Positions 15,600 through 43,073 of a stretch of DNA of 43,123 nt are shown piece after piece. The position numbers were made by a program, and so were the translations under genes. The notes under the pieces were generated by a model. The model searched no databases and had not been told where the DNA came from. It worked only from the letters and a program-made list of their open reading frames with translations. Each line of letters starts with the position of its first letter. Position 1 is the first letter of the stretch. Source of the DNA: Lentilactobacillus sunkii DSM 19904 (GTDB lineage Bacteria > Bacillota > Bacilli > Lactobacillales > Lactobacillaceae); NCBI RefSeq assembly GCF_001435575.1, contig NZ_AZEA01000019.1, forward strand, positions 1 to 43,123. Reading direction: 5' to 3'.

Positions 15600-16037
15600 A
15601 TGAAAACGAGAACGAAAAGAATAATCGAAGAATACTTACGAGAATATCCAGAAACGAACCGTTACCTCAAAGAACGTACCTTACAAATCATTTATCCATA
15701 CAAAACGCCTGATGAAAACGTGGGCGGCGGAAAACCTCAGTACAAGTACGATGAGTCGGTGGTTTATACGGCAATTAGTTTGAAAGAAGACAAGATCCTC
15801 AATACCTTAAAGCATCACCGAGACATCATTGATGATTGTCTTGATGATTGTGGCGAGGATACTCAAATGATTATCTCCGAGCTGTACTTCAAGCGTCATC
15901 AACAATACACAATGGATGGCCTAATTGCGAATGAGCTGATTCACGTTAGTCGTACCCAAGCATTTCGATTGAGAGATAAGTTTATTCAAGAAGTTGCCGA
16001 AGGTTTGGATATCTATGATTTGTCTGATGTTGTGTAA
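15600..16037 (+). CDS. ArpU/RinA-type late transcription regulator
   Basis: A 145-residue regulator of the ArpU/RinA class, which switches on late (packaging, head, tail, lysis) genes. The N-terminal part is helical and basic; the C-terminal part (MDGLIANELIHVSRTQAFRLRDKFIQ) has a sigma-region-4-like helix-turn-helix. It is the last protein gene before the packaging region, the normal place for it, with AAAGGGG upstream. Repeated TTGGGACT-like sequences start at its stop codon and may be its targets. Confidence 0.85.
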   Translation: MKTRTKRIIEEYLREYPETNRYLKERTLQIIYPYKTPDENVGGGKPQYKYDESVVYTAISLKEDKILNTLKHHRDIIDDCLDDCGEDTQMIISELYFKRHQQYTMDGLIANELIHVSRTQAFRLRDKFIQEVAEGLDIYDLSDVV

Positions 16038-16096
16038 TTGGGATTAATTTGGGACTTTGAGGGGGTATAAGCGCTCTAAACTGGTAATGTGGGACT
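16038..16096. promoter_or_regulatory. TGGGACT-like repeats, possible late-regulator sites
   Basis: TTGGGATT (16038-16045), TTGGGACT (16049-16056) and GTGGGACT (16089-16096) are near-identical; the first two are 11 bases apart, one helical turn, and the third 40 bases on. They follow the late regulator gene and precede the non-coding stretch leading to late genes. Binding by the ArpU-type protein is inferred from position. Confidence 0.4.
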
Positions 16097-16131: not shown

Positions 16132-16196
16132 GTGGTTGTAACGTACATACGAAGAGGGCGGCATCGCCGTGTTGGGTTCGATTCCCAACCAACCAC
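16132..16196 (+). ncRNA. Truncated tRNA-like element
   Basis: A 7-bp acceptor-like stem (GTGGTTG 16132-16138 with CAACCAC 16190-16196) stacks on a T-arm with a canonical loop: TTGGG, TTCGATT, CCCAA (16172-16188). Between them are only 32-33 bases, which fold into a 3-bp CGT/ACG hairpin and a 4-bp hairpin GGCG-GCAT-CGCC (16157-16168) instead of normal D and anticodon arms. The whole is about 65 bases. It may be a decayed tRNA or a functional tRNA mimic. Confidence 0.55.
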
Positions 16197-16240
16197 TTTG
16201 TGCTTTGATTAGCACACCTTCAATGTTTAACTTCAAGCGG

Positions 16241-16285
16241 GCTGCAGTCTGGCGACGAGATATGGGTTCAATTCCCATTTGCAGC
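16241..16285 (+). ncRNA. tRNA minihelix-like element
   Basis: GCTGCAG (16241-16247) pairs over 7 bp (one G-T) with TTGCAGC (16279-16285), directly joined to a T-arm ATGGG, TTCAATT, CCCAT (16262-16278) with a canonical loop. Only 14 bases replace the D, anticodon and variable regions. A 6-bp hairpin TGTGCT/AGCACA (16199-16216) lies just upstream. Acceptor plus T-arm is the part of tRNA recognised by RNase P, RNase Z and EF-Tu. Confidence 0.55.
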
Positions 16286-16288
16286 TTA

Positions 16289-16360
16289 ACTCAAATGGCG
16301 GAATAAGTAGACGCTACTAATTGTGATGGGCAACTTGGTTGTTGTGGCTTCATAATTTGG
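16289..16360 (+). pseudogene. Degenerate tRNA-Leu-like sequence
   Basis: TGGCGGAATAAGTAGACGC (16296-16314) matches the D-arm of class II tRNA-Leu, including the 3-bp GCG/CGC stem, and CAAC-TTG-GTTG further on could be a variable arm. No anticodon stem, T-arm or acceptor pairing can be formed around it, so it reads as a decayed tRNA-Leu. End points are approximate. Confidence 0.4.
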
Positions 16361-16365
16361 AGGCT

Positions 16366-16439
16366 GGACATATAGCTCAGTTGGTAAGAGCGCATGCCTG
16401 ATAAGCATGAGGTAACGGGTTCGAGTCCCGCTATGCCCA
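16366..16439 (+). tRNA. tRNA-Ile (anticodon GAT), slightly degenerate
   Basis: A full cloverleaf: acceptor GGACATA/TATGCCC, D-arm GCTC-AGTTGGTAA-GAGC, anticodon arm CATGC-CTGATAA-GCATG with anticodon GAT, and T-arm with loop TTCGAGT. Two A-C mismatches are visible, at acceptor pair 3-70 and at T-stem pair 49-65. CCA is not encoded. It could read ATC and ATT codons; the mismatches leave open whether it is active. Confidence 0.8.
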
Positions 16440-16449
16440 CTAAGGCCAT

Positions 16450-16468
16450 GTTGGGTGTAAATCCCAGC
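16450..16468 (+). other. T-arm-like hairpin after tRNA-Ile
   Basis: GTTGGG and CCCAGC form a 6-bp stem (one G-T pair) around a 7-base loop TGTAAAT, close to a tRNA T-arm but with G at the second loop position. It begins 11 bases after the tRNA-Ile and may be another tRNA remnant. The bases from 16469 to 16509 show nothing else that I can name. Confidence 0.35.
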
Positions 16469-16509
16469 TTTGAGTATTGAATATTTTGTAAATAATGGGG
16501 GCATGTAAC

Positions 16510-16596
16510 GTGGAAACTTTAATCAGCTTAATACTTATCCTGTTGCTGCCTTATTTATTTGCTGAGTACGGCCATAAGCAAGGGTGGTGGCACTAA
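16510..16596 (+). CDS. Very small membrane protein (28 aa)
   Basis: GTG-started frame encoding 28 residues: a hydrophobic helix (LISLILILLLPYLFA) followed by a polar tail ending KQGWWH. GGGGG lies upstream at workable spacing, and the stop overlaps the ATG of the next small gene (TAATG). Too short for any family call; the coupling is the main evidence for translation. Confidence 0.45.
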   Translation: METLISLILILLLPYLFAEYGHKQGWWH

Positions 16597-16754
16597 TGTC
16601 ACCAATGCGTCGAACCGCTTATGGTTATGTCTGCACAACAGAAGAACAAATTGAACGCAAATTAGATCTTGAACTTAAGAAGCGTCGTGCTAAACAGCAT
16701 GGCGCTTTTCGTTTACACAAAAAGGAGAAAAGACATGTTAAAAAACAACGATGA
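16596..16754 (+). CDS. Small basic protein (52 aa)
   Basis: A 52-residue protein, starting MSPMRRTAYGYVCTTEEQ and very rich in Lys and Arg towards the end (KKEKRHVKKQRR). The ATG overlaps the previous stop and follows GGGTGG. Its last 20 bases overlap the next gene. A nucleic-acid-binding role is conceivable from charge alone. Confidence 0.55.
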   Translation: MSPMRRTAYGYVCTTEEQIERKLDLELKKRRAKQHGAFRLHKKEKRHVKKQR

Positions 16755-18319: not shown

Positions 18320-18353
18320 ATACATATTGAATTCTTAAGAGGTGAAATCACAA

Positions 18354-42533: not shown

Positions 42534-43073
42534 ATGGCAATGTATTTCAAAGGCCAAAAGGTAGCACCTTTTTTTAATGGCCAAAAAATTGATTCTGTTT
42601 ACTACAAAGGTACCAAAGTGTTTGCCGGTTCAATTCCGGTCGGTACTGTTTTATGGAAGTCTTCAGATTCAAGAGGACAGGCATTTGGTGGTCAGATTAC
42701 CAACACTTATGTTGATGTAGCAATTAAAAAGATGGTATCCAAGGAAACAACCATCACTGTTAAATATCCTGTTGAAAGATTGCCACACGGAATTCGTGTT
42801 CAAGGAATCAATTACATCAACGGAACAGGATGGATTGATCATATGAACACTGGTAGCAATCCTGATGTTTATGGGACTGACTTCAAGATTCCCAAAGAAA
42901 AGTTAAATGACTTCTCAACGGTTTCTTCAAAAAGTCCTGGCAATGAATTTCAAATCAAATATACAAATAATGTAATCGACTTTGGAAGTATGGGAACTCT
43001 AGTTGCTGCAACAAAGAATAATGATAACGACGACAAACAATGGTCACTTATTCAGTCGATCACAGCATATTAG
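42534..43073 (+). CDS. Tail-associated fibre-like protein (179 aa)
   Basis: A 179-residue protein. It starts with three short strand repeats of similar pattern (YFKGQKV, FFNGQKI, YYKGTKV), a motif common at the start of Lactobacillus phage tail or adhesion proteins. The rest is strand-rich (AIKKMVSKETTITVKYPVER) and probably carbohydrate- or surface-facing. AGGTGACTACTT precedes the ATG. No enzyme motif is visible. Confidence 0.7.
   Translation: MAMYFKGQKVAPFFNGQKIDSVYYKGTKVFAGSIPVGTVLWKSSDSRGQAFGGQITNTYVDVAIKKMVSKETTITVKYPVERLPHGIRVQGINYINGTGWIDHMNTGSNPDVYGTDFKIPKEKLNDFSTVSSKSPGNEFQIKYTNNVIDFGSMGTLVAATKNNDNDDKQWSLIQSITAY

Follow-up and report, generated by a model that had tools for sequence, protein, structure and literature searches.

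How should we read a row of incomplete tRNA-like sequences that lies just downstream of the late regulator gene in a prophage of Lentilactobacillus sunkii DSM 19904? The row occupies positions 16132-16476 of the window, by which we mean the entire 43,123-nucleotide stretch that was analysed (contig NZ_AZEA01000019.1, forward strand), a prophage contig from a Lentilactobacillus-type genome that equals IMGVR_UViG_2660238337_000001 in length and sequence. It is a chain of reduced tRNAs just 3' of the late regulator gene of a Lactobacillus-type prophage, and it holds two reduced tRNA-like elements (A and B), one full tRNA-Ile and one interrupted tRNA-Leu-like RNA. The original prediction for this region offered three options, namely a decayed tRNA cluster, tRNA mimics that recruit RNase P and RNase Z, or decoys for host proteins. 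Chains of this kind are retained at the corresponding site in many related prophages, and the array therefore looks like a series of built-in cutting marks for phage RNA and not like decaying tRNA genes. The second option is the best supported of the three, since the retained features are those of a minimal substrate and a U usually follows the discriminator. We consider it probable, from sequence alone, that the array consists of marks at which RNase P and RNase Z cut a late noncoding RNA.

Element A (16132-16196, + strand) joins a 7-base-pair acceptor stem (GTGGTTG/CAACCAC) to a 6-base-pair T-arm, GTTGGG(TTCGATT)CCCAAC, and is followed by TTTG. Its 32-nucleotide middle lacks a normal D-arm or anticodon arm. 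Element B (16241-16285, + strand) is a minihelix wherein GCTGCAG/TTGCAGC and the T-arm ATGGG(TTCAATT)CCCAT are connected by a 14-nucleotide linker, TCTGGCGACGAGAT, whose GG might stand in for a D-loop. Both elements possess the approximately 12-13 stacked acceptor and T-stem base pairs, capped by a T-loop, that make up a minimal substrate for RNase P and RNase Z.

We scanned the whole window on both strands for an acceptor stem, a linker and a strict T-arm, and took 60 Markov sequences of the same size as the measure of chance. There are three matches (A, B and 42609-42647), compared with a Markov mean of 0.15 and a maximum of 1. The incomplete elements with a paired acceptor stem joined to a T-arm, as originally described, are therefore recovered, and all four T-loops named with them are present (TTCGATT at 16177-16183, TTCAATT at 16267-16273, TTCGAGT in the tRNA-Ile and TGTAAAT at 16456-16462). 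The accompanying statement that only one cloverleaf is complete agrees with ARAGORN and with Rfam at gathering scores, which report tRNA-Ile(GAT) as the sole tRNA in the window; neither program finds in A or B a canonical tRNA gene with a full cloverleaf and a 7-nucleotide anticodon loop, both of which the tRNA-Ile has. Single folds are modestly better than shuffled sequences, with z values near -2 for A and B and -0.3 for the tRNA-Ile. The third match of the scan is a lone minihelix-like sequence with an 8-nucleotide linker, located far from the array near the window end, and it is possibly due to chance.

A D-arm and a TGTAAAT arm had been listed as two further truncated elements, and we reject this division. 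The sequence ACTCAAA (16289-16295), just 5' of the D-arm, forms 7/7 pairs with TTTGAGT (16469-16475), just 3' of the TGTAAAT arm, and since these acceptor strands pair across the tRNA-Ile, the two halves constitute one interrupted tRNA-Leu-like RNA. The 5' half (16289-16365, + strand) carries the first acceptor strand, the D-arm GGCGGAATAAGTAGACGC and a long stem with an inner hairpin. The 3' half (16450-16476, + strand) carries the T-arm GTTGGG(TGTAAAT)CCCAGC, the second acceptor strand and an A, with TTG next. Between them sits the tRNA-Ile (16366-16440, + strand), which has one A x C mismatch in its acceptor stem and one in its T stem. The same layout surrounds the tRNA-Ile of the same-genus prophage G020 (L004), where 6/7 acceptor pairs form as judged by eye. 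In G019 and G011 there is an element with a near-identical acceptor stem (TGAGGTA/TACCTCA) and another middle, of 42 nucleotides in G019 and 130 in G011, and ARAGORN finds no tRNA-Ile in either counterpart. Free folding of the composite RNA gives no clean Leu cloverleaf.

Recurrence of such arrays was assessed by profile searches of 201 Lactobacillaceae genomes, which returned 104 matches to ArpU (TIGR01637) in 75 genomes and 57 matches to RinA (TIGR01636) in 44. We examined 118 of these 161 regulator matches (60 stored loci minus two cut at contig ends, plus 60 chosen down the lists, with the G020 array excluded), several of the stretches being shortened by contig ends. The first 58 loci contain 59 downstream elements on the regulator strand, distributed over 31 loci; the opposite strand has three, the upstream stretches have none in either orientation, and the Markov mean is 0.45. 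The complete set of 118 yields 92 downstream same-strand elements in 54 loci versus six on the opposite strand, with at least two elements in 27 loci and at least three in eight. The middles of these 92 range from 6 to 74 nucleotides. Positive loci come from 47 genomes and 17 genus codes, as read from the profile-search tables. When the acceptor requirement is relaxed, 99 T-arms are found on the regulator strand versus 10 opposite, and an acceptor partner exists for 92 of the 99. Partners across a long linker were found for two of the seven orphan T-arms, which is not significant (null mean 0.6, maximum 3 in 200 runs).

Full tRNAs occur in some of the arrays (Ile in the window; Met, Trp, Arg, Lys, Asn and others in relatives, according to ARAGORN). 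Only 12 of the 60 stored regulator loci have a tRNA that ARAGORN recognises, and five of 20 loci chosen for arrays have one that Rfam recognises. Around the regulator in 12 phage records, at least one element lies on the regulator strand in seven, namely Lb, A2, TMW 1.591 P1, TMW 1.1393 P1, Lj928, JNU_P2 and Lrm1. Phage phig1e has one element match on the opposite strand, and ARAGORN adds tRNA-like matches in LBR48 and phig1e. The sole tRNA annotated in these 12 stretches is the tRNA-Glu of Lj928, and in A2 a hypothetical open reading frame (ORF) overlies the first element. In literature searches of an open-licence library, none of the papers listed describes arrays of this kind in its title or abstract opening.

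Because the scan selects for intact stems, pairing in relatives is not counted as evidence. However, the scan never reads the position after the discriminator, and it likewise does not require a GG in the linker. Removal of repeats from the 118 loci and the seven named phages leaves 93 distinct elements; 73 of them have a middle outside 38-44 nucleotides, although the 23 longer ones may include tRNAs that have a long variable arm, and the short elements have no decoding part. A U directly follows the discriminator in 88 of the 93, and a C does so in none. For the 118 loci alone the count is 79 of 84 against a background T frequency of 0.287 (p = 8e-37, assuming an independence that related elements break). 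Divided into four linker classes, these 84 elements have the U in 28/29 (the shortest class), 19/19, 15/16 and 17/20 cases. A U within two nucleotides of the discriminator stimulates the RNase Z of B. subtilis approximately 200-fold, according to a passage of PMC10100781 that cites Pellegrini 2012. The array elements combine such a U with the lack of an encoded CCA, as expected of an RNase Z substrate.

Linkers of 20 nucleotides or fewer contain GG in 28 of 29 cases (shuffled mean 18.65, reached by none of 500 shuffles) and TGG in 14 of 29 (shuffled mean 7.6, reached by three of 500). Possibly this GG is a retained D-loop GG that would make the contact forming the tRNA elbow. Among the 71 elements with a 5-base-pair T-stem, the commonest letters are U just 5' of the acceptor stem (35) and G at the first acceptor base (40).

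A pattern search for element A itself gave 103 stretches in viral contigs and at least 114 in named genomes, most of them by chance. A T-arm filter leaves 11 viral contigs, the window included, and, among the named-genome matches listed, four stretches, two of which (in Lentilactobacillus hilgardii and L. dabitei) carry element A. The 10 distinct sequences show changes on both sides at four stem pairs, which none of 500 shuffles reaches, although most of these changes come from the window's own row and the small middle helix was misplaced in the structure used. Four of the 10 rows are unpaired at one acceptor position. In loci L270 and L259 the slot is filled by an element with a similar acceptor stem and T-arm and another middle, the one in L259 failing the strict scan. 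Elements similar to B were recognised by eye in L008, L038 and L063.

The spacer between A and B (16199-16240, + strand) opens with a hairpin, TGTGCT-TTGATT-AGCACA, no more than three nucleotides past the end of element A. Across 106 trailers, the 32 nucleotides past the RNase Z site have a mean folding energy of -5.59 kcal/mol, compared with -3.73 kcal/mol for the stretch 45 nucleotides further on (p = 9e-4). Given this better folding, a hairpin would often stand at the head of a released piece. In 54 of 68 distinct array loci, the stretch from the last element to the first called ORF contains a terminator-like hairpin with a T-run, versus 14 on the opposite strand; for the subset within the 118 loci the counts are 39 of 53 versus nine. 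One rule was used for both strands, and the window is among the 54 even though its hairpin sits in an uncalled ORF.

Three prophages of another genus (L436, L437 and L438) carry the large RNA ROOL in the same slot, between a tRNA-like element and a tRNA-Lys, and after an ORF that matches ArpU with an E value near 1e-8. These three are the ROOL-positive ones among 35 genomes from the genus to which G130 belongs, and a comparable promoter-like motif ahead of ROOL was seen by eye. In L436 and L438 the upstream part is a minihelix with a 17-nucleotide linker that ends 13 nucleotides before the start of the ROOL model, and the tRNA-Lys begins five nucleotides past ROOL. In L437 an element with a 40-nucleotide linker overlaps the model start with its end, and the tRNA-Lys overlaps the model end by five nucleotides. 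There is no match to ROOL (RF03087) or to GOLLD (RF02032) in the window or in its own genome; the GOLLD search gave no match anywhere, and hence its sensitivity is unproved.

A reading as cutting marks fits these observations best because it accounts for the marks that are independent of the scan (the U, the GG and the hairpin after the cut), for the fixed place and for the bracketing of ROOL. In such a scheme, the late transcript of the phage, perhaps initiated at the promoter-like motif found ahead of the first element, would begin with the array as a noncoding segment. Each element would be the top half of a tRNA, made of acceptor stem, T-arm and linker GG, which host RNase P would cut in vivo on the 5' side and host RNase Z on the 3' side. 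These cuts would release the RNA between the elements as stable pieces, a number of which would open with a hairpin; the large ROOL RNA would be the piece released in some prophages. The pieces, and not the tRNA-like parts, would presumably be the useful product. Quite possible, though we stop just short of favouring it, is a wider proposal that temperate phages of the Lactobacillaceae open their late transcript with a kit of noncoding RNA. Its top-half cutting marks would stand between interchangeable modules, the ROOL nanocage RNA being one of them, and the host tRNA enzymes would serve as an RNA assembly line.

Several observations weigh against cutting marks. There is no match in 64 of the 118 regulator loci, some of which are cut by contig ends. 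In other families of the order, a match is present at only three of 30 ArpU loci, and in this sample the arrays therefore belong mainly to the Lactobacillaceae. Overall, spacers pair end to end only weakly relative to mismatched controls (p = 0.05, 43 spacers); values of -8 or lower occur in 17 spacers versus 15.6 expected and of -12 or lower in nine versus 3.6, so that the excess exists only among the strongest. The terminator-like hairpin of the window lies inside an ORF. ROOL is rare, being present in four of the 201 genomes (G130 included), and the other three of these four loci have no element on the ROOL strand. The regulators beside ROOL score under the curated cut-off of ArpU, and the upstream part in L437 is a tRNA-Met according to ARAGORN. 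Also, L436 and L438 are identical over 101 compared bases, and therefore there are at most two independent cases of ROOL bracketing. Finally, host tRNAs of the genus mostly lack an encoded CCA (44 of 58 by a rough count). Together with the U after the discriminator, this makes the elements resemble the 3' ends of host pre-tRNAs, and therefore the RNase Z signal is a likeness to pre-tRNA that does not separate cutting marks from decoys.

Decoys remain from the original prediction as the foremost rival, albeit one we judge unlikely. Stripped tRNAs could be abundant late-phase sponges for host RNase P, RNase Z, the CCA-adding enzyme, modification enzymes, EF-Tu or defence factors that act on the acceptor end. 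They would have the same anatomy, the absence of a decoding part from the short elements would be natural, half of the positive loci (27/54) offer at least two copies, and in most relatives a terminator-like hairpin would set the array apart as an RNA of its own. However, the RNase Z signal and the hairpin that follows it point to cutting, the close bracketing of ROOL points to release of the intervening RNA, and elements without an anticodon loop should not bait anticodon nucleases.

We regard it as improbable that the arrays are decayed islands of disused phage tRNA genes, in which the acceptor and T-arm frame survives either as the last part to decay or because an uncut leader is harmful. 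Consistent with decay, some of the same arrays hold full tRNAs, a number of elements retain a D-arm, and the tRNA-Ile of the window has its two stem mismatches. However, across many genera even the shortest elements of relatives retain the processing mark, this being the class with U and GG in 28 of 29 cases each, and the frame of element A is kept in relatives while its middle is replaced. A tRNA pseudogene would be expected to show free drift of its stems and of its processing signals, and here the signals are kept, the stems being judged on element A only. We also saw no relatives with a full tRNA set and freely drifting stems, although some arrays do include single full tRNAs. Thus, the claim that there is more order than random decay would leave holds, and a decayed cluster fails as a full account.

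Least probable of all is that the array and terminator form a checkpoint for read-through into the late genes, set by folding or cutting of the tRNA-like parts and resembling the lambda 6S RNA/tR' leader, since several tRNA-like parts with an RNase Z signal are not obviously needed for this, although the order of promoter-like motif, array, terminator-like hairpin and late genes would suit it.

Organelle transcripts are cut at their tRNAs by RNase P and RNase Z, an arrangement called tRNA punctuation. The array would be tRNA punctuation in modified form. It likewise has tRNA-shaped parts between other RNAs and the substrate features for both enzymes, whereas many of its parts are top halves only, it lies in a phage late leader, the intervening pieces are noncoding and the cuts are predicted. 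Phage tRNA genes and arrays are similar in that some of our arrays hold full tRNAs, and differ in the middle lengths given above. ROOL and GOLLD of phages and prophages are related through the slot that ROOL fills in three prophages, but the window matches neither, and brackets of minihelices are unmentioned in the passages on ROOL and GOLLD that we consulted. Transfer-messenger RNA (tmRNA), which combines a tRNA-like domain with a tag reading frame, was rejected as an identity, none being found by ARAGORN in the window. Its tRNA-like domain resembles the elements in having a D-loop without a D-stem, and the linker of element B (CTGG[CT]GA) resembles the tmRNA D-loop, yet by eye element B lacks the G3-U70 pair.

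Since most such elements are rejected by tRNA finders, a class of phage noncoding RNA may have escaped notice. If the cutting marks are real, they would give a reason for the occurrence of ROOL near tRNAs and suggest how the ends of ROOL are made. The combination of T-arm, acceptor stem and U after the discriminator would be a simple signal for finding further late phage RNAs, and the elements would be naturally occurring minimal substrates for RNase P and RNase Z, with linkers down to about nine nucleotides.

The array had been placed exactly between late regulator and late genes. This holds loosely: the regulator gene of the RinA family (TIGR01636, PHROG 36; 15600-16037, + strand) ends at 16037, but several small ORFs separate the array from the small terminase gene at 18342. 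Between regulator and array is an extended -10-like promoter, TGGTAATGTGG (16082-16092, + strand), recognised by eye, whose function we infer. In many loci a similar motif of the TATATTGGTATTGTGG type lies 5' of the first element, often after short direct repeats (by eye, uncounted). Direct repeats of about 10-11 base pairs were seen by eye in many loci, either at the 3' end of the ArpU/RinA gene or beyond it, for example in L259 (CCGCAGTTTTA), and are possible binding sites for the regulator.

Directly 3' of the array is a 28-codon frame with a GTG start (16510-16596), which would encode the membrane-like peptide VETLISLILILLLPYLFAEYGHKQGWWH; by eye, similar frames are present at the same place in relatives. 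The stretch of the window from the array to the small ORF at 16584-16754 yielded no terminator-like hairpin, and the hairpin with TTTT that was counted for the window (16681-16709, + strand) lies within this ORF.

A hairpin with a G[CT]GGAAA loop recurs in the terminator or after an element, for example in L033, L065, L276 and L320. Downstream in the 118 loci there are 22 on the same strand and two on the opposite strand; in the 58 full loci the corresponding counts are 16 and one downstream versus five and one upstream. Lastly, a near-complete tRNA-like element with the acceptor sequence ATCCTAG or GTCCTAG and an odd anticodon loop recurs in different genomes (L273, L305, L314, L366 and L368), and ARAGORN reads a four-base anticodon in four of these five.
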